Assembly: GCF_003226535.1 (NCBI RefSeq) | Contig: NZ_QKOB01000011.1 | Location: 1-64,000 of the forward strand | Source of the DNA: Meiothermus sp. Pnk-1 | GTDB lineage: Bacteria > Deinococcota > Deinococci > Deinococcales > Thermaceae | DNA: 64,000 nt | Direction: 5' to 3' | Part shown: positions 35,586 through 52,059 of the stretch, piece by piece | Position numbering within the stretch: the stretch's first letter is position 1 | Layout of the letters: every line of letters starts with the position of its first letter | The notes under the pieces: generated by a model | The model's database searches: none | Seen by the model: the letters and a program-made list of their open reading frames with translations, nothing else | What the model was told of the DNA's origin: nothing | Position numbers and translations under genes: made by a program

Positions 35586-35695
35586 GGGGGGGTTATTGCG
35601 ACAGGTACGGGACCGGTGGCCGTAACGGGAGCGTTATGGGGACCCCGCTAAGGTAGGGCCTGGAGCGATTGACACCAGGCCGAGCGAGGGGTGAT

Positions 35696-36754
35696 ATGCA
35701 GACGATTATTCGAGCCCGTGCGCCTTTACGGATCAGCTTCGGGGGTGGGGGAACCGATGTCCCCCCCTACTGCGACGAACGCGGTGGGGTGGTGCTCTCG
35801 GCCACCATCAACCGCTATGCCCTGGCTTCGCTGGTCCCCGGCGGCGACCGTTTTAGCGTGCGCAGCATCGATTACGACCAGAGCATCGAGTACGGGATCC
35901 ATGATCCTTTTGTCTTTGACGGCCAGCTCGATCTCGCCAAGGGGGTGCTCGAGCACTTTCGCCGCACCCAGGGGCTCAAAGACGGCTTTGAGGTCGCGCT
36001 GCACAACGACGCCCCCCCAGGATCGGGTTTGGGCTCTTCCTCGGCCATTACGGTAGCCCTGATCGGGGCCATCGCCGAGCATCTGCGCCTCTTTCTGGAT
36101 AAGTACCAGATCGCCGAGTTGGCCTACCGCATTGAACGCCAGGACGTGGGCATCAAAGGCGGCAAGCAGGATCAGTACGCGGCCACCTTCGGCGGCTTCA
36201 ACTTTATCGAGTTCCACCCCGGACTCACCCTGGTGAACCCCCTGCGGCTCCCGGCGCAAACCGTGTGGGAGCTCGAGTATAGCCTGGTCTTCGCCTTCGT
36301 GGGGGGGCAGCACTTCTCCGGGCACATCATCGAGAAGCAGCAGGAGAACTACCAAAAAGGCCGCTACGACGCGGTGCAGGCCATGGACGAGATCAAGGCC
36401 ATCGCCTACGAGATGAAGCGGGCCCTGCTGCGCGGGCATCTCCAGGAGTTCGGCGCCCTCTTGGACGTCGCCTGGCAGTGCAAAAAGCGCATGGCCGAGG
36501 GCATCAGCAACCCCCATATCGACGAGGTGTACCAGGAGGCCAAGAGGGCCGGAGCCATAGGCGGCAAGGTCACCGGGGCGGGCGGGGGCGGCTTCATGTT
36601 CTTCTACTGCGATCCCTACCGCCGCTTCGCCGTGCAGGAGGCCCTCAAGAAGACCGGGGCCCAGGTGGTGAACCTGAGCTTCGTGGAGGAGGGGCTCTCG
36701 GCCTGGACCCTCCACGAGGGCGCCCTCGAGCCCAGGGCCCTGGCCGTCCAGTAG
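35696..36754 (+). CDS. hddA: GHMP kinase, D-glycero-alpha-D-manno-heptose 7-phosphate kinase type
   Basis: The 352-residue kinase has the GHMP ATP site PPGSGLGSSSAITVALIGA (about residues 103-121), an N-terminal RAPLRISFGGGGTDVPPY that is characteristic of the HddA/FKP group, and a C-terminal GGKVTGAGGGGFMFF. HddA phosphorylates heptose 7-phosphate at C1 for GDP-heptose synthesis. The identity is supported by gmhA and the HddC-GmhB fusion directly behind it. GAGGGGTGAT supports the ATG at 35696. Confidence 0.88.
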   Translation: MQTIIRARAPLRISFGGGGTDVPPYCDERGGVVLSATINRYALASLVPGGDRFSVRSIDYDQSIEYGIHDPFVFDGQLDLAKGVLEHFRRTQGLKDGFEVALHNDAPPGSGLGSSSAITVALIGAIAEHLRLFLDKYQIAELAYRIERQDVGIKGGKQDQYAATFGGFNFIEFHPGLTLVNPLRLPAQTVWELEYSLVFAFVGGQHFSGHIIEKQQENYQKGRYDAVQAMDEIKAIAYEMKRALLRGHLQEFGALLDVAWQCKKRMAEGISNPHIDEVYQEAKRAGAIGGKVTGAGGGGFMFFYCDPYRRFAVQEALKKTGAQVVNLSFVEEGLSAWTLHEGALEPRALAVQ

Positions 36755-36761
36755 GAGGTCT

Positions 36762-37343
36762 ATGACGCAACCCGCCCTATCCGCGTTCGGTCAGGCGATG
36801 GACGATCACCTCGAGGTGGCGCGGGCCACCCGTGCCCTGGCTCCTCAAGTGGCCCAGGCCGCCCAGATGATGAGCGAGTGCTTACGCCAGGGGGGGCAGA
36901 TCCTCTTCTGCGGCAACGGCGGCTCCGCCGCCGACGCGCAGCACCTGGCCGCCGAGTTTGTGGGGCGCTTCCTCAAGGAGCGCCGGGCCTTACCCGCCCA
37001 GGCCCTCAGCGTGAACACCTCGATCCTCACCGCCATCGGTAACGACTACGGCTACGAGCGGGTCTTCGCCCGGCAGGTGGAGGCCGTGGGCAGGCCTGGC
37101 GACATTTTGGTAGGCATCACCACCAGCGGCAACAGCCCCAATATCCTCGCCGCCGCCCTGGCCGCCCGCGCCGCAGGCCTGAAGGTCATCGGCATGACCG
37201 GGGCGGGCGGGGGCAAGCTGGCGGCCCTTTGTGATTTGCTGCTGGCGGTGCCCTCCCAGAGCACCCCGCGCATTCAGGAGATGCACATCCTGATGGGCCA
37301 TAGCTTTTGCCAGATGGTCGAAGAAGCGCTGCTTGAAGCATGA
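36762..37343 (+). CDS. gmhA: Phosphoheptose isomerase (SIS domain)
   Basis: The 193-residue enzyme converts sedoheptulose 7-phosphate to D-glycero-D-manno-heptose 7-phosphate, the first step of ADP- or GDP-heptose synthesis. The SIS motifs CGNGGSAADAQHLAAEFVGRF and GITTSGNSPNIL are intact, as are the C-terminal His/Glu residues (IQEMHILMGHSFCQMVE) of the zinc site. It starts 7 bp after hddA and overlaps the next gene by an ATGA. Confidence 0.94.
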   Translation: MTQPALSAFGQAMDDHLEVARATRALAPQVAQAAQMMSECLRQGGQILFCGNGGSAADAQHLAAEFVGRFLKERRALPAQALSVNTSILTAIGNDYGYERVFARQVEAVGRPGDILVGITTSGNSPNILAAALAARAAGLKVIGMTGAGGGKLAALCDLLLAVPSQSTPRIQEMHILMGHSFCQMVEEALLEA

Positions 37344-38566
37344 AGAGGTCGCTCGAACAGGCCGTGATCCTGGCCGGGGGGTTGGGCTCCCGGCTGGGGG
37401 CTTTGACCCGGGAGACCCCCAAGCCGCTGTTGCCGGTAGCGGGTAAGCCCTTTCTGGACTATCTGCTGTGGAACCTCGAGCGCCACGGCTTCCGGCGCAT
37501 CCTGTTCTTGCTAGGGTACAAAGCCACGCAGTTCATCGAGCACTACGGCAGCGGAGCACGCCACGGCCTCGCTGATGACGCGCAGCGAAACGCACGTCTT
37601 GAGGTTGAGTACGCCGTCGAGCCCCGACCGATGGGTACGGGCGGGGCGCTGCGGCTAGCCCAGGACTACCTGGACGAGCGCTTTCTTTTGCTCAATGGGG
37701 ATACCCTATTCGACTTCAACTACCTCGATCTGGCCTTGCTCGAGGCCCCGGCTGCCGTAGCCCTGCGCCAGGTGCCCGACGCGGCCCGCTACGGGCGGGT
37801 GCGGCTGGAAGGCAACCGGATCGTCGGGTTTGGCGAGAAGGAGGGAGAAGGCCCTGGCCTGATCAATGGCGGGGTGTACGTGCTCTCGCGGCCAGTCGTG
37901 GAGCTCCTGCCGGAAGGGGTGAGTTCGCTCGAGCGCGACCTCTTCCCCTGCCTCGTCGAGCGGGGGGAACTGCTGGGCAAACCCTATGAGGGGTTCTTCC
38001 TGGACATCGGCCTGCCCGAGACCTACGCCGAGGCCCAGACGGCCCTCCCCAGCTGGCAGAAAAAACCGGCGGTGTTCCTAGACCGCGACGGGGTATTGAA
38101 CCACGACCAGGGCTACACCCATCGCCCTGAGCAGTGGCGCTGGACCGAAGGAGCCGTCGAGGCGGTGAAGTGGCTCAACGACCGGGGGTATCTGGTCTTG
38201 GTGGTCACCAACCAGGCGGGAATCGCACGGGGCTACTATACCGAGGAACACTTTTTGCAGTTCACCGCCTGGATTCACGAACAGCTGCGCCTGGCCGGGG
38301 CGCACCTCGAGGCCACCTACTACTGCCCCTACCACCCCGAGGGCTTGGGCCCTTACCGCCGCGACTCGGAAGACCGCAAACCTCACCCTGGCATGTTCCT
38401 GCGGGCCATCGCCGAGTGGCAGCCCGATCTTTCGCGCAGCCTGGCCATCGGCGACAGGGAAAGCGACCTCCGGGCGGCCTGGGCGGCAGGGGTGCAGGCG
38501 CGGCTTTTCGCTGGAGGCAACCTGCTCGAGTTCGTCCAGGATGCCCTCGGCGAATCCGGGCGTTAG
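37340..38566 (+). CDS. Fusion of heptose-1-phosphate nucleotidyltransferase (HddC-like) and GmhB-like phosphatase
   Basis: The 408-residue protein joins two enzymes. Residues 1-235 form a sugar-nucleotide transferase (AVILAGGLGSRLGALT, then PKPLLPVAGKPFLDY and LLNGDTLFD). Residues 243-408 form a HAD phosphatase of the histidinol-P/GmhB type (FLDRDGVLN at 247-255, VVTNQAGIARG, then GDRESDLRAAWAAG). GmhB removes the C7 phosphate of heptose bisphosphate; HddC then adds GMP. The zinc loop is altered: CPYHPEG is present but the usual C-x-C is replaced by DSEDRKP. The start overlaps gmhA (ATGA). Confidence 0.9.
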   Translation: MKRSLEQAVILAGGLGSRLGALTRETPKPLLPVAGKPFLDYLLWNLERHGFRRILFLLGYKATQFIEHYGSGARHGLADDAQRNARLEVEYAVEPRPMGTGGALRLAQDYLDERFLLLNGDTLFDFNYLDLALLEAPAAVALRQVPDAARYGRVRLEGNRIVGFGEKEGEGPGLINGGVYVLSRPVVELLPEGVSSLERDLFPCLVERGELLGKPYEGFFLDIGLPETYAEAQTALPSWQKKPAVFLDRDGVLNHDQGYTHRPEQWRWTEGAVEAVKWLNDRGYLVLVVTNQAGIARGYYTEEHFLQFTAWIHEQLRLAGAHLEATYYCPYHPEGLGPYRRDSEDRKPHPGMFLRAIAEWQPDLSRSLAIGDRESDLRAAWAAGVQARLFAGGNLLEFVQDALGESGR

Positions 38567-42037: not shown

Positions 42038-43651
42038 TCAGCGCTGGAAGGGGGTCTGCGGCGAGCGGTGATAGATCTGCGCCTCTCCGTTGTCGTAGAC
42101 CCGGTCACCCAGGAGCCAGGTGGATTGGGGGAATCCCCAGGCGATCGAGTTGGCCTGTTTGAGGCTCGAGTTCAGCGTGTGGAAGGCAAAGGGATTGCGC
42201 TGGGCCACATCCAGGTCGTTGAGGTTGGAAGGGCCGAAGTTGTATTCCATGTAGTAAGCGTCGTATAGGCGGGTCTCCGGGCCCACCCACAACACGCTCT
42301 CCCGCTCCCGCTCGCTCCAGGCGTGGATCGCCTCGATCTCGGCGGCGCTGTAGTGCATCCAGCGGTTGCTCACCAGGGGGTCGAGGGTGGCCTTGAGCAG
42401 GCTGAGCACCGCCAGGATCACCGCTGCTGCGCCCGCCACTTGCCAGCGCCAGGGGCTCGAGCCCAAGAGCCGGGAGAGGCCCAGGGCGAACAGCGGGGCG
42501 GCGAAGACGGCAAAGTAGGTGTACATGCGTACCTGGAGGTTGCTGCCCGCCTCGAGCCCTACCAGGTCGATCGGAATTGCCGCCGCCAACTGCAGGCCGA
42601 ACCCTCCATACAAAGCCAGCAGGAGAACCCGTGGGACAGCCGCTCTCTCGGGGGCGCGCAGGGTAGGGACGAGGAGCGTGAGCCAGGCCGCAAAAGAGCC
42701 CAGGAAAAGAATCCAGCGGAAGGAGGAGAGCAGCCTGTACACCCAAGGGCTCGCCCAGTCCGTAGCGGTGGATTCGTAGGGGTTAGATTCCGGGGTGAAG
42801 CTCAGGGCCAAGGCCCCGAGCTTGGCCAGGGCCGTTTTGAGCACTTCCAGGTTGTGCCCGGCGATGGGGTAGATGTACCACATCACCAACATCACCAGTA
42901 GCCAGGAAGCCCCTACCCGTAAGGCCAGGCGCTGGGTGGAGGTGCGCAGCTGGGGTAGAGGCTGGCGGCGCATCCCCAAAAGGAGCAGGGCGAAGATCAA
43001 GGCCACGGTGGAAGCCACGATGAAGCTCGAGCCGAAAAAGACGTTGAGCGTCGCTAGGCTAAAGGCCACCAGATAATAGACCGCCACCCAAGCTGCGAAG
43101 AGCCCCCAGTTGCGGGCTTGCGCTTCCATGAAGCCCTTCAGCAGGCTGAGCGAGGCCAGCAGGGTGAGGGCGACCGTGATCTTCTCGTGGTTGCCGCGGG
43201 AGACGGTAAATACCAGCTCTGGCACCAGAAACAGCGTCGAAGCAGCGATCAGGCCCAGCCGATCCGAGCCCAGCCAGCGGCGGAAGGCGGCAAAGCCGAA
43301 AATCCCCAGGAACACATTACCCAGGACGGGCAAATAGATCTGCGTCAATTCGCCGATGGGCCGCCCGGTGAAATAGGAGAGCATGTTGACCCAGGTGGCG
43401 TAGGCGTACCCATGCGGGTATGCCCCGGCGTAATCGATCCTGCCCTCGAGCTGCATGCGGGCGATGATTCCGGCGAAGGCCACCCCGTCGATCTCGCCCC
43501 AGCGACCGCCGTAACGCAGCACAAAGTACAAACCGAAGCAAAGCCCAACCCCTGCGATCAACCAGAACGCCGAGAGCTGGCTCTCTTGTCGGGGGTGGGG
43601 CCGGGCCTTAGCGGAAGGGGCTGGCTGGATATCTCTGCGGCTAGGGGTCAT
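42038..43651 (-). CDS. Polytopic membrane protein, GT-C glycosyltransferase-like
   Basis: The 537-residue protein has about ten to eleven membrane segments and a final outside domain of about 110 residues. The first outside loop reads GGRWGEIDGVAFAGIIARM and then AYPHGYAYATWVNML. An acidic first loop of this kind is typical of lipid-phosphosugar-dependent GT-C enzymes. No named family is certain. GGAGG precedes the ATG at 43651; the frame extends 16 codons upstream without support. It is the last gene of the operon that begins at 51790. Confidence 0.75.
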   Translation of the reverse strand: MTPSRRDIQPAPSAKARPHPRQESQLSAFWLIAGVGLCFGLYFVLRYGGRWGEIDGVAFAGIIARMQLEGRIDYAGAYPHGYAYATWVNMLSYFTGRPIGELTQIYLPVLGNVFLGIFGFAAFRRWLGSDRLGLIAASTLFLVPELVFTVSRGNHEKITVALTLLASLSLLKGFMEAQARNWGLFAAWVAVYYLVAFSLATLNVFFGSSFIVASTVALIFALLLLGMRRQPLPQLRTSTQRLALRVGASWLLVMLVMWYIYPIAGHNLEVLKTALAKLGALALSFTPESNPYESTATDWASPWVYRLLSSFRWILFLGSFAAWLTLLVPTLRAPERAAVPRVLLLALYGGFGLQLAAAIPIDLVGLEAGSNLQVRMYTYFAVFAAPLFALGLSRLLGSSPWRWQVAGAAAVILAVLSLLKATLDPLVSNRWMHYSAAEIEAIHAWSERERESVLWVGPETRLYDAYYMEYNFGPSNLNDLDVAQRNPFAFHTLNSSLKQANSIAWGFPQSTWLLGDRVYDNGEAQIYHRSPQTPFQR

Positions 43652-43664
43652 TGCGGCCTCCGGT

Positions 43665-46028
43665 TCATACCCATCTCCACGCGCGCCATAGGCCCACAAG
43701 CCCTGCGGCGAGGAGCGCCGCTAGCAGGATCAGGGCCATCGGATTCGTGCCAAACTCTTGTCGTATACCCTCTCGCTGGCTAGGGATGATGAAGACCGGG
43801 GCGAGCTCGAGGGTAATTTTCCCCAGCACCAGCCTAACCGGCTGGTAACCCCTCCCGCTGGGGGAGAAGGCCAACTCTTCAGACCACCGGCCCGCCCCCG
43901 GGACGCTGAGTTCGCTCCAGGCTTTTACCAGCTCGTTGCCCACCCACAGCTCGGCGGGTCCTGCGTAGTCGAGGCTGCCCTGGTTCTCCAGGCTTAGCCG
44001 GAACCAGGCTGGCTCAAACTGCCGGACATCTTTGGCCTCGAGCCTGCCCTGGAGCTTAGGAGTCTCCGCTTGGCGGCGGCTCCAGGTGCGGCTGGCCGCG
44101 TCATAGCGCAGCAGGTGGGCTCCGGCGGGAAGGCTGGGTAAGCCCAGGGCCGCACCCACCGGACGGGGTGTACTGAGCACCATCTGAAAGCCACCGGGGA
44201 TTGCCTTGACCTGACTGAGCTGGGCCCCCGGCAAGTTCAGGCTAGGGCCAGGAAAAGCCTGCAACCAGGCCCGCAGGTTGCGCGGGTCGCGTCCCGCGTA
44301 GGGGGCGAGGCGCTGGCGGAAGGCCTGCCAGCTCTCCCGGTCGGCGGGGGGCTCGAGGGTGAAGGCTTGGAGCTGGTAGCTGGCCTGCCGTAGCTCTACC
44401 CCGTCAGGACCGGTATAGAGCAGGTAGCCGCCCATAGCGTATAGAGCTTGTTCGGGCTTGCCGGGGTAAGCCCGGGGCGGGCCATCTTCGGCGGGGGATT
44501 TCGCGCCTGGGGCCGAAGGCGGAGGGGGGGTAGGAGGCGCTGAAGCCGGGCGCTCCAGGATCCAGCTATCTACATTGGGCCCGGCCTGGAGGCTTTGGGT
44601 GCGGAGTACCCGGCCATCCCCTAGGTTCCACAAGCCCCCCTGGGCCCAGCGCAGGTGGACGCGCTGGTCAATCGGGCTCAGGTAAAGCTGGGGAACGCGG
44701 AAGTAGCTTGCGCTGTACTCGCCCCTAAATCCTGGAGGGAGGGCCCGGTCGGAGGTGCGCACCAGCGAATCGTCCTTGGGTAGGTAAGGGGATTCGAGTT
44801 CCGCGATGGGGGCATCGCTGGTGCCGGAGAGCCAGTTCCAGTGCTCGCTGGCCTGGGCGCTGTAGAAGTAGATGCCTTCCGAGCCGGGGTAGCCCTGGGT
44901 GGCTTCGACGAAAGTGACCATGGGCCAGCGCTGGCCCACCACGAAGCGGGTCAGGTGGGCCGGGGAGGGAGCGTTAAACTTCTGCCCACCGATTTGGTAG
45001 GTCTCCTGGTAGGGATAAAAGCCCGCCAGATGCAGCCCGTAGCGCCAAACGGTGGGGTTATCGGTTTTCCAGGAGTAACGGAAGGTGGTGCGCTCGAGGT
45101 TGTAGGGTTCAGGACCAAAAGGTACCCCCGCGGGAAAACGGCTTCCGCGCACGACTAACTGGGCATAGCGGGTGGCCGGGTCGAAGTTATAGAACACAAA
45201 GGGCGACTCAAAGGATACCTGGGGTGGGTAGGTGCTGGAGTTGATGGCGTACATGCCGCCGTTTTGAAAGCCGGGGAAGGGGTTCAAGCGAAAGGTATAG
45301 TCGCGCAGGTCCAAGTAGAGGGGGTTGGGGTTTCGCTCGAACCAGTCGGGGGATTCCCGTCCGATGCCTAGAAAAGGGAAGTTGGGCATGATCGAGGGGG
45401 CTACCTTGAAGGGCAGCTCGGGTTGAGCCCGCAGATTGGCGCCAAAGCGCTCGCAGCCGCGGGTGGTCTGGTAGGGGTCGGCCTCGGGGCGGCGGCGGTT
45501 GGTCTGCCACAGGGGGTCCCCCCGGGCATCGGTGCCTACGGTGATTTCGATGTCGATTTGGCCATCCGGGTCTACGCGTTGGTCGCAGTCTAGGCCGTCC
45601 TCGAGTACCGTGAGCCGGTAGTTGGGCTTGCCGTTCACCAGCCAGCCTCCGCTTTGGGGGCGCAGGACGAGGACGGGGTAGGTGGGGTCGGTCAGCTCGA
45701 GGCGGTTTCCTTCCAGGTTGAAGGCGATGGGCAGGGCCCCCCAGGACCGTAGGTAGAGCCGAGCCTCCGGAGTGTCGCCGCCATGGGAAAAAACCAGCGC
45801 CATGCGGAAGTTTTGGGGGTTCTCAAAGGCGAAGATATACGCGTCGGTCTCGGTGTTGCCCCAGCGCCACCAAGGTTGGCGGCGCACGTCCGCGGGGATG
45901 GGGTTGGGGCTTACCACCGTCACCCAAGCCGGAACCCCGGCGATGGTTCCTCGCCAAGTAGCGCTTTCGGTTAGGCCGATCGAGGCAAGGCTCAAGGCCA
46001 GCCACACGAGGAGGTGGGCGTGTTTCAT
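43665..46028 (-). CDS. Large secreted protein with C-terminal membrane anchor; function unknown
   Basis: The 787-residue protein has a Sec signal (AHLLVWLALSLASIGL), a long Trp/Tyr/Pro-rich region, a Pro-rich linker (PPTPPPPSAPG, about residue 490), a second beta-rich domain, and a C-terminal membrane segment followed by WRAWRWV. A WETW-like composition and PYFR/YFRV strands suggest beta-sheet surface domains. I recognise no family. The start overlaps the GT2 stop (ATGA), so it belongs firmly to the glycosyltransferase operon and may be glycan-modified or glycan-binding. Confidence 0.75.
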   Translation of the reverse strand: MKHAHLLVWLALSLASIGLTESATWRGTIAGVPAWVTVVSPNPIPADVRRQPWWRWGNTETDAYIFAFENPQNFRMALVFSHGGDTPEARLYLRSWGALPIAFNLEGNRLELTDPTYPVLVLRPQSGGWLVNGKPNYRLTVLEDGLDCDQRVDPDGQIDIEITVGTDARGDPLWQTNRRRPEADPYQTTRGCERFGANLRAQPELPFKVAPSIMPNFPFLGIGRESPDWFERNPNPLYLDLRDYTFRLNPFPGFQNGGMYAINSSTYPPQVSFESPFVFYNFDPATRYAQLVVRGSRFPAGVPFGPEPYNLERTTFRYSWKTDNPTVWRYGLHLAGFYPYQETYQIGGQKFNAPSPAHLTRFVVGQRWPMVTFVEATQGYPGSEGIYFYSAQASEHWNWLSGTSDAPIAELESPYLPKDDSLVRTSDRALPPGFRGEYSASYFRVPQLYLSPIDQRVHLRWAQGGLWNLGDGRVLRTQSLQAGPNVDSWILERPASAPPTPPPPSAPGAKSPAEDGPPRAYPGKPEQALYAMGGYLLYTGPDGVELRQASYQLQAFTLEPPADRESWQAFRQRLAPYAGRDPRNLRAWLQAFPGPSLNLPGAQLSQVKAIPGGFQMVLSTPRPVGAALGLPSLPAGAHLLRYDAASRTWSRRQAETPKLQGRLEAKDVRQFEPAWFRLSLENQGSLDYAGPAELWVGNELVKAWSELSVPGAGRWSEELAFSPSGRGYQPVRLVLGKITLELAPVFIIPSQREGIRQEFGTNPMALILLAALLAAGLVGLWRAWRWV

Positions 46029-47158
46029 CGGTATCCCCCAAAGAGGTAAAACAAAGGTGGGAGGGCTTCTTGTAGGGTCCGGGTGGTGAGGCTGGGGTCG
46101 TTGGCCAAAGCGGTGATGATGGCCAGGTTCTCCTGGTTCCAACGCCGCAGAAAAGTCGTGCTGATCCTCATGCCAGGCTCGACCCCGACGGCTTCCAAAA
46201 CCAAATACCAAAGCTGGGCCCGGACGCTCTTAGGCATGGGCAACCGGCTTATCGTTCGGGCGATCGCGACGTCCCAGCGTAGCTTGGGGCTCTCGCGGGC
46301 GGCGCGTTCCAGGTAGGGCTGGGCCTTGGCTGGCTCCTTGGCTTCCAGGTACAAAAAACCGATCGCCGCCAGGCGGCCCACCACGGCCTGGTGGCGGTAG
46401 GGCTCGAGGTCGGGCGGCGTACTCGGGGGGAGCTTGTCCTGGAACATGGCGACCTCCTCGATCATGCGCGGCAGGATGTGCTTGGGGATGGTGTGCGACT
46501 CGGGGTGCTCCCGAAAGTAAGCCAGCGGGCGGGGCAGGTAGTAGGCTTGAGCCCCTCGCCCTAGCAGCTCCAGCCACAGCTCGTAATCGGACACAAACAC
46601 GTAGTCCGGGTCAAACAGGAAGGGATGGGGGTAAAAGCGCTGGAAGAGGCCTCGCCGCACCAGGGTGGTTTGCACCATGATGTAGTTGTTCAGATACAGC
46701 TCGCGCAGGCCGCGGTGCAGCCCTGGGGGGGGCAGGTGCCGGAAGATGCTGAGGTAGGGTACTGGCCCGTCGTCCTTCACCTTGTAGCCATCGGCGTGCA
46801 CAAAGGTGGCCTGGGGGTTTTGCTCGGCGGTAGCAACCAAGACCTCCAGCGTTTCCGGCATCCACCAGTCATCGGATGGAAGGATGATGAAATAGCGGCT
46901 TTCGGGGTGAGCGTTTTGCAGGCAGCGGGTATAGTTGGCGGCCAGGCCCAGGTTTTGAGGGTTTCGGAACACCCGCACCCTTGGGTCTTTATGGACGTAA
47001 GCTTCGGCTATGGCGTGGGTCTGGTCGGGGGAGTGGTCATCGGTGATGACCAGCTCAAAATCCTCAAAGCGCTGCGCCAACACGCTCTCGATGGCCTGGG
47101 CGATGTAGCTTTGGTGTTTGTAGGTGGGCATCAAAACGCTGACCGATGGACCCGCCAT
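46025..47158 (-). CDS. Glycosyltransferase family 2 with helical C-terminal extension
   Basis: The 377-residue enzyme has the GT-A start VSVLMPTYKHQSYIAQAIESV, VITDDHSPDQT for nucleotide binding and PSDDWWMPETL as the DxD-type metal site. After about residue 260 there is a TPR-like helical tail (LYLEAKEPAKAQPYLERAA; LPMPKSVRAQLWYL) shared with the GT2 at 50804-51790. It probably acts at the inner face of the inner membrane on a lipid-linked glycan. The start is 8 bp after the stop of the previous GT2 gene. Confidence 0.9.
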   Translation of the reverse strand: MAGPSVSVLMPTYKHQSYIAQAIESVLAQRFEDFELVITDDHSPDQTHAIAEAYVHKDPRVRVFRNPQNLGLAANYTRCLQNAHPESRYFIILPSDDWWMPETLEVLVATAEQNPQATFVHADGYKVKDDGPVPYLSIFRHLPPPGLHRGLRELYLNNYIMVQTTLVRRGLFQRFYPHPFLFDPDYVFVSDYELWLELLGRGAQAYYLPRPLAYFREHPESHTIPKHILPRMIEEVAMFQDKLPPSTPPDLEPYRHQAVVGRLAAIGFLYLEAKEPAKAQPYLERAARESPKLRWDVAIARTISRLPMPKSVRAQLWYLVLEAVGVEPGMRISTTFLRRWNQENLAIITALANDPSLTTRTLQEALPPLFYLFGGYR

Positions 47159-47166
47159 ACCCCCTC

Positions 47167-48111
47167 CTACAACAGGCCGACGACGGAGCGCAGGGCACGC
47201 TGCCCGAACTTATAGGTGAGCATGGTCAGGCAGCGGGTAAACAGGTAGGGCCGCCCCAATTGGGCAATCTCCCGGCAGTGCCTCAGGGCCTGGCCAAACT
47301 GCCCTCCGCTACCGGCCTGGGCGGCGGCCAGGTGGTAGGCGTGGGCGAGGTTGTTGCGGCGGTTCTCGGAGAGCAGCCGCGCCTTGGGAAAGCCGCTGCG
47401 CTCGGCTACCTCGATGGCGTGCCGGTAAGCGCCGATGGCTAGCTCGAGGGCAGATCTAGCGGTGATCTGCTGCGCAGAGTGAATCCGCCGCAGCGCCAGG
47501 TTGAGCGGCAGAAACCCCATCGGCTTTCCCACCGCCAGCCACGTGGGGTAGTCATAGGCGGGCAGGTACGGGCGTTGCTGGAACCCTCCCGCGGCCTCCA
47601 GCCGGGAGCGGGAGATGAGGGTGGTGATGGTAGGAATCCAGTACTCGCCCCGAAGCAAAGCGATGTACAAGTCGGTGGCGGGATTGAGCACCGGGTAGGG
47701 CGATTGCCTAAGGGGCCGGGCGTGTTCGTCTACGGCTTGGCACTGGGCAAAGCTGAGGGCATAGCCCCCCGCCAGGTGAAAGGGGAGGTGCTTGGCCAGG
47801 CGTTCGGGAAGCCACAGGTCATCGTCGTCCATCAGGGCGATAATCGATCCCTTGGCCTGGGCCAGGGCGAAGTTATAGGTCTCGGCGAAGTGCTCGATGC
47901 CGCGGTGTTCTTGGCGCAGGGGGCGAATCCGCGCATCGCGGGCGGCGAACGCGCAGGCCACCGGCCAGGTGTCATCGCTCGACCCGTCGTCCACCAGGAT
48001 GACTTCCCAATGGGGGTAGGTCTGCTCCAGGATGCTCGAGAGACTTTGGGCCAGCAGATGAGCCCGGTTGTAGGTGGCGATGAGGATGCTGACCTGGACT
48101 GGCTCAAGCAT
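47167..48111 (-). CDS. Glycosyltransferase family 2
   Basis: The 314-residue GT-A enzyme starts with VSILIATYNRAHLLAQSL and has ILVDDGSSDDTW for nucleotide binding and ALMDDDDLWLPERL as its metal motif. The C-terminal 100 residues are helical (GAYRHAIEVAERSGF). It overlaps the end of the flippase fusion gene by 8 bp. The donor sugar is not predictable. Confidence 0.92.
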   Translation of the reverse strand: MLEPVQVSILIATYNRAHLLAQSLSSILEQTYPHWEVILVDDGSSDDTWPVACAFAARDARIRPLRQEHRGIEHFAETYNFALAQAKGSIIALMDDDDLWLPERLAKHLPFHLAGGYALSFAQCQAVDEHARPLRQSPYPVLNPATDLYIALLRGEYWIPTITTLISRSRLEAAGGFQQRPYLPAYDYPTWLAVGKPMGFLPLNLALRRIHSAQQITARSALELAIGAYRHAIEVAERSGFPKARLLSENRRNNLAHAYHLAAAQAGSGGQFGQALRHCREIAQLGRPYLFTRCLTMLTYKFGQRALRSVVGLL

Positions 48112-50803
48112 GGGTTCGGGCCTCCTCGGGATAGGGTGCCTCGGTCAGGCGGCTTGGAGGGTAGTGGCGTTGCAGCGCGGCTTGGTAGACCTGCTCGAGC
48201 CCCTCTGCGGCGTGGTCCCAGGTGAAGTTGAGGGCGAGTTCACGGGCGGCTAGGCCGCGCGATTGGCGGGCTGAGGGGTCTTCGGCCAGGGTGAGCATCG
48301 CCGCCTCGAGGGCGGCTTCGTCCCTGGGAGGCACCAGCAGACCTGCCTCTGGCTGCACCACCTCGGGCAGCCCCCCTACCCTCGAGGCGATGATCGGTTT
48401 GCCCGAGGCCATGGCCTCCAGGGTTACCAGGGCAAAGGCCTCCTCCATCACCGAGGGAATTACTACCACATCGGCGGCCGCGTAGACGGCGGGGATCTGA
48501 TCGCGGCTGAGGTTGCCCAGGAAGTGGGCGTTGCACCCTTCCAGGCTGCGGCGTACCTCCTCAGCATAGGCTTGGTGCGGGTCGTGGTCTGAAAGCTGGG
48601 AACCCCACAGCTTGCTGCTGCCAGCCAGCGCCAAATGGACCTTGGGGTGGCGCCGGGAGAGGCGGGAGAAAGCCCGCGCCAAGTGGATCACCCCCTTCTC
48701 GTGCACAATGGCCCCCACGAAGAGAAACACCGTCTCGTCCTCGGCCACCCCCCATTCCCGGCGCAGCGCGCGCCTCGGCTCGAGATGGCGCTGCGGGTGA
48801 AAGCGCTCGGTATCTACTCCGTTGTAGACGCAGTACACCTGGCCCTCCAGGCCGTACCGGCTGAAGCCTCGCTGGAGCTGGCGGGCGATGAAGCGGCTCA
48901 CCCCTACCTGGGCTTGGCTGTGCCGGGCTACCAGACGGAAATCTCCCGGTTTAAGCGCCGGGCTTGGCCCTTGGTATATCTGGGTGAGGGGGTCGCCGTG
49001 AAAGTGGACGACCCGGGCCCTGGCCCGCAAACCCCGCACGTAGTCGTAGAGGTGGGTGTGTACGATATCGAAGGCCTCGAGGAGGCAAAGCCGCACCAAG
49101 GGCAAGTGGACCCGCAGGTCCAGCTCGCGCCCGGCCAGGCGGAGCACCGGGATCCTGGCCGGGCGGAGGGAGATCAGGCGCACTCCCTGCCACTCCCGCT
49201 CCCAGGCTTCCTTGCCTACCGCCGCTACCCAGACCCTGTGCCCCTGGCGGGCTTGGGTGCGGGCGATCTCCAAGGCGGCCCGCACTACGCCGCTGACTCC
49301 TTCGGCATCAGGATTTTTGGGGAGGACCCGGTTTCCCAAGATGTGCAGTATCCGGTACCCTACGCGCTCCTGCAAGGCGCGCAGGTAACCGAGGCGCCAC
49401 ACCCCTCCCAGGTAGAGCACCCCGGCTATGGGAATGGCGAGCCAGTCCAGGCCACGCCCCACCAGCCAGTGGGGGATCAGATAGGTGGTGATAAGCCCCA
49501 AAAACACGATGGTACCCAGAGATGCCCAAGGCAGGTATAGCCTGCCGGTGACCCCGATGACCCGCAAGAGTATCCAGTACGCTCCCAGGGTGTAAAACAC
49601 CTGGGAGCCGGTGTTGGCCAGCGCCGCGCCGATGGCTCCGTACGGAGGGATGAGCAGGTAATCTAAGCCGATGTTGAGCGCCGAGGCAGCAAAGCCCAGG
49701 GGGATTGTGGCCCAGGGGCGGCGGATGGCCCCTAGGGTGAGGCCGGTAACCGTTACCGACAAGCTGGGGATGAGCCCGAGGAAGAGGATCTGGGCTACCG
49801 GAACGGTAGGGAACATCTTTTCCCCGTATAGCCAGTAGATGGCCGTGCCCAGCATGGTGAGGGCGCCGAAGGATAGAGGGGTGGCGAAGAGGGTCATCAG
49901 CACTACGCCCTGGGCGATCTTCTCCCGCACCCGCCCCCAGTCCCCGGCGCCGAAGTCACGGGCGATGGCGGGGAAGAACCCCCCCACCAGGGCGTACCCC
50001 ATGCCCACGCAGAGGCCGTAGATGGTGAAGGCCAGGCTATAGTAGCCGATCTGGTCCTGAGTGGACAACTGGGCCAAAAAGTAGACCTCCGAGCGCTGCC
50101 AGACGATCATCTCAAATATGGTGTGGAGGATCATGGGGAGGCTGAAGGCCAGGTACAGCCACACCGTGGCACGGGTGGGACCTGGTTGAAAGCGGAATAA
50201 GTGCCGCTGGGTTCCTTTGCGCAGGGCATAGAAAAACAGGCCGATCGAGCTGCTGACGCCTAACGATAGGAGCGCCAGCAAGAAGCCCGGCTTACCCCAG
50301 TGCAGTAAAGCCGCCGCCGCGGCGATTCCGAGCTGCACAAAAGAGGCTACTGCCAGGCTGATCGCGGCGGGGCGGTACTCCTCGTTGCCCCAGAAGCTCG
50401 AGGTGAGGAGCCGGCTCAGGGCGTTCAAAAATGGCAGCGGCGCGATGATGGTGAGGTATAGGGAGAGGGGATGAGGGCTGCGCCAGGCCCACACCAGCAG
50501 CGCCAGCCCGATCAGGGCATTCAACGCCAGCAGCCCCCGGCTCACCCAAGCCGCCAGCGCTTCCCCCTCTTGTGGCCGCCCCTGGCCGCGGAGTTCGGAG
50601 ATAAACCGGGTGAGTGCCGCCGGAAAGGCCAACACCCCCAAGGCGCTCAGCAACCCGGCCAGCCAGGCGTAGTAGCTGACTTCACCGTAGGCCTGGGTAT
50701 CCAGGGTGCGGATCACGATCACCGAGACCACCATGCCGGTGAGGGTCGAGACCAGGGTGCTGACCGCATTCCATAGCCCATTGCGCACTGCTTTGGTGAG
50801 CAT
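48104..50803 (-). CDS. Fusion of a Wzx-type flippase with a family 4 glycosyltransferase
   Basis: The 899-residue protein has two complete parts. Residues 1-475 form a polysaccharide flippase of the MATE/MOP kind with about fourteen membrane segments (LTKAVRNGLWNAVSTLVSTLTG at the start). From about 483 a GT4 enzyme begins exactly where a free GT4 would start (YRILHILGNRVLPKNPDAEG), with FLFVGAIVHEKGVIHLARAF and the donor motif EAFALVTLEAMASGKPII near 800. The linker is only about 5-10 residues. The frame is continuous, without a stop or slippery run. The ATG follows directly on the GT2 stop (TAAATG). Confidence 0.92.
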   Translation of the reverse strand: MLTKAVRNGLWNAVSTLVSTLTGMVVSVIVIRTLDTQAYGEVSYYAWLAGLLSALGVLAFPAALTRFISELRGQGRPQEGEALAAWVSRGLLALNALIGLALLVWAWRSPHPLSLYLTIIAPLPFLNALSRLLTSSFWGNEEYRPAAISLAVASFVQLGIAAAAALLHWGKPGFLLALLSLGVSSSIGLFFYALRKGTQRHLFRFQPGPTRATVWLYLAFSLPMILHTIFEMIVWQRSEVYFLAQLSTQDQIGYYSLAFTIYGLCVGMGYALVGGFFPAIARDFGAGDWGRVREKIAQGVVLMTLFATPLSFGALTMLGTAIYWLYGEKMFPTVPVAQILFLGLIPSLSVTVTGLTLGAIRRPWATIPLGFAASALNIGLDYLLIPPYGAIGAALANTGSQVFYTLGAYWILLRVIGVTGRLYLPWASLGTIVFLGLITTYLIPHWLVGRGLDWLAIPIAGVLYLGGVWRLGYLRALQERVGYRILHILGNRVLPKNPDAEGVSGVVRAALEIARTQARQGHRVWVAAVGKEAWEREWQGVRLISLRPARIPVLRLAGRELDLRVHLPLVRLCLLEAFDIVHTHLYDYVRGLRARARVVHFHGDPLTQIYQGPSPALKPGDFRLVARHSQAQVGVSRFIARQLQRGFSRYGLEGQVYCVYNGVDTERFHPQRHLEPRRALRREWGVAEDETVFLFVGAIVHEKGVIHLARAFSRLSRRHPKVHLALAGSSKLWGSQLSDHDPHQAYAEEVRRSLEGCNAHFLGNLSRDQIPAVYAAADVVVIPSVMEEAFALVTLEAMASGKPIIASRVGGLPEVVQPEAGLLVPPRDEAALEAAMLTLAEDPSARQSRGLAARELALNFTWDHAAEGLEQVYQAALQRHYPPSRLTEAPYPEEARTHA

Positions 50804-51790
50804 TTAGGCCCTCCGCATGGCCTGGGTGGTACTCCAGGCCAGGTTCCACAGTTGGGCGCGGGTGTTCTTGGGAAGAGGAAGCGCGGCGATCCAGCGGGCC
50901 ACGGCGAGGTCGAGGCGGGTTTGTGGGCTTACCTGGACGGTTTTCTGCAACAAGGCTCGAGCCTCTTCGATTTTCGAAACGCCCAGCAGATGAAAGCTCA
51001 AGGCGGCCAGACGGTTCGCCAAGGCTTCCTGACGCGCAGGCTCGAGCCTGGGGGGGGTGAGGGGGGCCAGCTTCTCGAACATCCGCACCTCTTCTCTTAG
51101 GCGAGCTTCTATGTTGGCTTCAGTGGTGAGTGCTGCCGCGTGCTTGCGGATGTAGGCCAACGGTTCGGCCAGGTAATAAGCGGTGTGACCCTGCAGAAGC
51201 AGCCGCAGCCAAAGGTGCATGTCGTGTACGTGGCGCAGCTCGGGATCGAAAGGAGGTTTTTCTTGGATATATTTTCTGTTGACCAAAGCGCATTGGGCAG
51301 GGATGTAATCGGCCTGCATCAACAAAGACACCGCCTGGTGCAGCCCTTCCGGCGGTTGCCGCATGAACTCGCTATACCGGTTGAGCAACCGGCAAGCCTC
51401 GTCGGTGCGGTAGGCGTCGGCGTGCACTATAGCCACCTCGGGGTGCGCTTGCGCGACTTCTAGCAAACGCCTGAGGGTTTGCGGCGTCCACCAGTCATCG
51501 GCGGGAAGCAGGATAAAGTAGCGGCTTTGCGGGCTCATGCTGAGGAAGCAGCGGTTGAAGTTCTCCACGACGCCGAGGTTGGTGGGGTTGCGGAAGGATT
51601 TGATGCGGGGGTCGCGAGCGGCGTACTCGGCGACGATCTCGGGGGTGTGATCCTCTGAGGCGTTATCCCCGATGATCAACTCAAACGCCTCCATCTCTTG
51701 GGCCAGCACGCTCTCGATCGCGGTGGGGAGAAAGCGGGCGTAGTTATAGGTGGCCATCAATACGCTGACCTCGGGTTGGACGGGCTTCAT
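50804..51790 (-). CDS. Glycosyltransferase family 2 with helical C-terminal extension
   Basis: The 328-residue enzyme has VSVLMATYNYARFLPTAIE, LIIGDNASEDHT and PADDWWTPQTL as GT-A landmarks. Its tail (LSFHLLGVSKIEEARALLQ; LPLPKNTRAQLWNLAW) matches that of the GT2 at 46025-47158, so the two are paralogues. The ATG at 51790 is chosen by the conserved start; the frame is open 27 codons further. It opens the long operon that ends at 42038. Confidence 0.9.
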   Translation of the reverse strand: MKPVQPEVSVLMATYNYARFLPTAIESVLAQEMEAFELIIGDNASEDHTPEIVAEYAARDPRIKSFRNPTNLGVVENFNRCFLSMSPQSRYFILLPADDWWTPQTLRRLLEVAQAHPEVAIVHADAYRTDEACRLLNRYSEFMRQPPEGLHQAVSLLMQADYIPAQCALVNRKYIQEKPPFDPELRHVHDMHLWLRLLLQGHTAYYLAEPLAYIRKHAAALTTEANIEARLREEVRMFEKLAPLTPPRLEPARQEALANRLAALSFHLLGVSKIEEARALLQKTVQVSPQTRLDLAVARWIAALPLPKNTRAQLWNLAWSTTQAMRRA

Positions 51791-52059
51791 GCGACGGGCC
51801 TCGCTCTGCGGGGGCTTGGTGGTATATTCGAACCCGCAGCATAAGCCTAGCGGCTGGGGCGTTATGCCCACGTTACCTCGAGGTTTTTTCCCTTCCGACG
51901 TGACAAATTTGCTTGCGTGACGCCCGATTTTGAGCCTTTCCCCGGGGGATACGCGAGGGTCACGGGGAGCTTAACGGGTGTGTCTTCGGGTGAGGAGGCC
52001 ATCCCGGCGCGGTAACAACCCTGGCCGAGTGCGAGTGGGGCGGAACGCTCCAGGGGGGG

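Follow-up and report, generated by a model that had tools for sequence, protein, structure and literature searches.

In the Wzx/Wzy pathway, lipid-linked units are built in the cytoplasm, and it is not yet settled how glycan assembly at the inner face of the membrane is coordinated with flipping. Charged cavity residues are essential in WzxE or MurJ, for example R24-D25-R255 of MurJ, and physical complexes of the Wzx pathway have been suspected, of which, to our knowledge, none has been trapped. A supramolecular complex of this pathway is also suspected in a study of WzxE, whose C-terminal Arg tail at the cytoplasmic entrance was proposed to recruit the pyrophosphate (PMC11706664). Flippases of relaxed specificity, in turn, were proposed to export incomplete precursors and to sequester Und-P (PMC11759038). 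The mycobacterial MurJ (MviN) carries a C-terminal cytoplasmic pseudokinase (PMC6180346), and a direct interaction of the glycosyltransferase PelF with PelG, an exporter of the MOP superfamily, is reported in work cited in PMC13254593.

The window, that is, the whole stretch of 64,000 nucleotides analysed here, holds a minus-strand ORF (48104-50803) that is confirmed to encode one protein made of a complete 14-helix MOP-superfamily flippase, a short linker and a complete GT4 glycosyltransferase. Genomes are labelled G000 (the source genome), G001 (same genus), G006 (same family, other genus) and G039 (other family, same order).

Domain architecture and predicted structure

The gene and its parts are as follows.

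48104..50803, minus strand: fusion gene, flippase plus GT4, 899 aa (ORF and Pfam; kept in G001 and G039)
49394..50803, minus strand: flippase domain (residues 1-470); 14 TM helices predicted, both termini inside by the positive-inside rule (Pfam, hydropathy, profile, model, Foldseek)
49355..49393, minus strand: linker, residues 471-483, with model confidence lowest at 477-479; site of the former gene boundary
48107..49354, minus strand: glycosyltransferase domain (GT4) of residues 484-899, the globular part reaching ~880 (Pfam, AlphaFold, Foldseek)
48416..48442, minus strand: EX7E motif of the GT4, residues 788-796 (EAFALVTLE), E788-E796; the same motif in G039 and G006

The ORF starts with ATG and runs as a single frame with no internal stop. 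Pfam places Polysacc_synt at residues 6-282 (1e-16; 61.5 bits, cut-off 28.2), Glyco_transf_4 at residues 503-667 (6e-17) and Glycos_transf_1 at residues 677-854 (6e-35), the last two also above their cut-offs. The flippase belongs to the MOP/PST (Wzx-like) group both by the Polysacc_synt cut-off and by a MOP fold with 12-14 TM helices, and the second half is a GT4 by its domain cut-offs, EX7E motif and GT-B fold. In a profile search with the flippase half, WzxE was the best match at 3.5e-21, followed by TacF and MurJ. The Pfam model of MurJ also matches residues 242-439 (1.6e-12). Identity as MurJ was considered and rejected, as the NCBIfam model TIGR01695 gives 44-48 bits where its cut-off is 235.55, and all four genomes (G000, G001, G006 and G039) encode a distinct MurJ above the family cut-off elsewhere. 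Since a proper MurJ is thus present, the fusion would be a glycan-cluster flippase serving another glycan.

The AlphaFold model of the whole fusion (mean pLDDT 83, pTM 0.60) is all-helical up to residue ~477, followed by a GT-B-like domain that begins with the strand at 484 and reaches ~880; the placement of one domain relative to the other is of low confidence, as expressed in the pTM, and pLDDT falls below 50 in the linker, with residues 477-479 poorest. Modelled separately, the flippase half reached a pLDDT of 86 and a pTM of 0.87. Foldseek matched residues 1-482 to MurJ, WzxE and MATE structures, MurJ being the top match, with TM-scores up to 0.71 on query length. The glycosyltransferase half matched MshA, GlgM, BshA and other GT4 enzymes (TM-score of 0.81 for MshA, on target length). 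Pfam, AlphaFold and Foldseek therefore all bear out the proposal of an earlier note, made from the letters of the window, that a whole Wzx-like transporter is joined in frame to a whole GT4; the linker, given there as about 5-10 residues, measures ~13. Hydropathy gives 14 TM helices with the positively charged loops on the side of the N- and C-termini, from which the GT4 domain is predicted to face the cytoplasm.

Relatives and selection

A stop codon or frameshift in the junction, or separate genes in all relatives, had been named beforehand as findings that would speak against the fusion, and a search of related genomes had been suggested. In G001 the fusion is present as one ORF of 899 aa with 90% identity, and in G039 as one ORF of 913 aa with ~50% identity across both halves, while in G006 the flippase and GT4 homologues are adjacent yet separate, a TGA stop overlapping a GTG start in the 4-base GTGA. 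Two other genomes are thus fused and one is split, and between G000 and G001 there are ~225 synonymous and 108 non-synonymous changes without a single frame break, the substitutions in the junction being in frame. Because the one-ORF form is also intact in G001 and G039, chance, a lost stop codon and sequencing or assembly error are excluded, and sequence comparison confirms the fusion as genuine. An annotation or sequencing artefact at the junction, such as an overlooked stop or a frameshift, is left with a negligible probability by the uninterrupted frame in these two independent relatives and by the codon substitutions across the junction.

The dN/dS ratios between G000 and G001 are ~0.10 for the flippase and ~0.16 for the GT4, which on codon comparison indicates that both domains are under purifying selection. 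That the locus is degenerate, with one half non-working and the fusion a relic, is extremely improbable in view of the low ratios in both halves, the confident folds, the kept EX7E motif and the retention of all helices.

A search with the flippase in 111 genomes of the phylum returned four loci (in G000, G001, G039 and G006) and otherwise weak matches only, and a survey of Polysacc_synt matches in the 111 genomes gave no flippase-glycosyltransferase fusion beyond G000, G001 and G039. In a further genome, G002, the GT4 end sits at a contig edge, so that fused and split forms are indistinguishable there. A whole-protein scan of genome contigs found a single distant GT4, tblastn against plasmids found no place covering both halves, and the fusion was not seen in viral contigs. 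Several long frames were rejected as fusions: the phylum's other flippase frames above 600 aa (L084, L085, L086, L088, L089) owe their length to 5' extensions that appear non-coding by eye, and a 1401-aa ORF of G006 contains a spurious 5' extension. L087 (G109:C370, 2325-4652, plus strand) encodes 775 aa with a flippase (weak Polysacc_synt match) and a C-terminal APH-type phosphotransferase; it is a true flippase fusion whose partner is not a glycosyltransferase.

The junction and its origin

The junction lies close to the position of the GTG start of the unfused homologue, where residue 483 of the fusion is Tyr, encoded by TAC; in the fusions, the position beside the old start reads TAC or TAT. 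The earlier suggestion that the GT4 part begins at its own former start is therefore right as to the former gene boundary, whereas the start codon itself is gone. This region also bears on whether two products are made, the full-length fusion and a GT4 of its own initiated within the gene. An AGGAG motif directly precedes the junction, and there is an in-frame TTG477, but TTG477 lies ahead of the motif, no in-frame ATG, GTG or TTG follows it at normal spacing, the old start position is now TAC, and the junction of G039 has neither AGGAG nor an in-frame ATG, GTG or TTG. We regard a second product as very unlikely.

The separate pair of G006 with its GTGA overlap likely represents, on sequence grounds, the pre-fusion state. 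In the flippase tree the fused forms are sisters (99/99 support) with the split form outside, and flippase identity is 50% between fused forms of the two families against 39-42% between fused and split forms. The 553-aa neighbour tracks kinship instead, with 58% identity between G000 and G006 against 45% between G000 and G039, and the GT4 tree does not resolve the branching among G039, G006 and G000/G001. A single fusion event followed by transfer would fit these data, as would an old fusion if G006 carries a different paralogue or underwent a fission.

It is possible, though on balance unlikely, that the fusion was neutral, having arisen from small indels at the overlapping stop and start, with independent domains and only stoichiometry and membrane attachment fixed. 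The GTGA-overlapping pair of G006 is probably already translationally coupled, so that few mutations would be needed to fuse it; the linker is short and poorly conserved in sequence and length among homologues; and the split form persists in G006. On the other hand, the fused state has been retained over ~50% protein divergence and in two families; this suggests use and is still compatible with neutrality.

Gene cluster

The fusion gene lies within a tightly packed operon, with the following neighbors.

50804..51871, minus strand: upstream GT2 glycosyltransferase, whose stop codon directly abuts the fusion ATG
47167..48111, minus strand: downstream GT2 glycosyltransferase, whose start overlaps the fusion end by 8 nt
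46025..47158, minus strand: GT2 glycosyltransferase, paralogue of 50804-51871 (46%)
43665..46211, minus strand: large protein with an N-terminal signal-like segment and a C-terminal TM, without Pfam match and conserved alongside the flippase/GT4 pair
42038..43699, minus strand: 553-aa hydrophobic protein without Pfam match, conserved partner

The two proteins in 42038-46211 (the 553-aa membrane protein and the exported-looking one of ~790 aa) gave no Pfam, NCBIfam or PADLOC matches. The larger probably starts near residue 62 of its ORF; the smaller is probably a multi-pass membrane protein and, as a guess, a polymerase or GT-C type enzyme. Both accompany the flippase/GT4 pair in G001, G039 and G006, and in G002 they accompany the GT4 end. 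In the latter genome (genus g2), a putative amidotransferase of the asparagine-synthase type, so judged from its sequence (L090, G002:C143, 5471-7669, minus strand), separates the GT4 from the large exported-looking protein. The two 46% identical GT2 paralogues flank the fusion; G006 showed one.

Glucose-1-phosphate cytidylyltransferase, C-methyltransferase-type sugar genes and a Wzy_C protein are encoded nearby, and by its gene content the locus is a surface-glycan cluster. Heptose genes at 35669-38566 encode an HddA-like kinase, a GmhA-like isomerase and an HddC-like nucleotidyltransferase joined to a GmhB-like phosphatase in one protein, and heptose genes occur near the fusion in G039 too.

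Proposed role

The reading that we favor, and hold to be probable, is that in-frame joining of overlapping genes tethers a cytoplasmic GT4 reaction to the entrance of the flippase, within a surface-glycan pathway of the Wzx type; we infer such coupling of sugar addition to flipping as the most likely role. The gene of a Wzx-type flippase and the GT4 gene that followed it, formerly adjacent and overlapping, would have been joined in frame to give one membrane protein, a 14-helix flippase ending in the cytoplasm with the GT4 as its C-terminal cytoplasmic domain. The GT4 would add a sugar late in assembly, perhaps the final one, to the polyprenyl-diphosphate-linked unit at the flippase entrance and hand the finished lipid-linked unit on to the flippase. 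The coupling would keep down the flipping of unfinished units, a process that can trap the lipid carrier, and would set a 1:1 ratio of transfer and flipping activities. The C-terminus of the fusion after TM14 differs from that of the 12-TM WzxE, so the analogy of an entrance is only approximate, and since the pair is separate in G006, the function does not require fusion. A stricter version, in which the fusion is a licensing device with GT4 transfer mechanically coupled to flippase opening, so that only units bearing the sugar of the GT4 are flipped, is doubtful.

A natural covalent fusion of this kind would offer a ready-made sample in which both steps could be assayed and solved together, with the natural unfused homologue as control. 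Judging from its relatives, it probably comes from heat-loving bacteria.

Relation to described systems

The fusion resembles Wzx/PST flippases (E. coli WzxE, TacF; PF01943) in profile, fold and surface-glycan cluster setting, but has 14 helices instead of 12 and ends in a whole GT4. It shares the 14 helices with the lipid II flippase MurJ, its top Foldseek match, and scores far below the MurJ cut-off. MshA, BshA and PimA are among the best sequence and structure matches of the glycosyltransferase half and share the EX7E motif; none of them is part of a transporter, and the match does not reveal donor or acceptor.

The component families are already known, and so is the attachment of a cytoplasmic domain to the C-terminus of a MOP flippase. 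The open-access literature searched yielded no description of a flippase joined to a sugar-transferring enzyme, and the earlier remark that no described example was known in this group holds as far as that literature and this phylum go. Pel (PMC13254593) offers the parallel of a cytoplasmic glycosyltransferase (PelF) partnering an exporter of the MOP superfamily (PelG), as separate proteins and in a polymer pathway, whereas here flippase and glycosyltransferase are one chain; the glycosyltransferase half matches PelF weakly, below the cut-off. The mycobacterial MurJ (MviN) is likewise a MOP flippase whose TM14 is followed by a fused cytoplasmic domain (PMC6180346), its addition being a regulatory pseudokinase and that of the present fusion a sugar-transferring enzyme.
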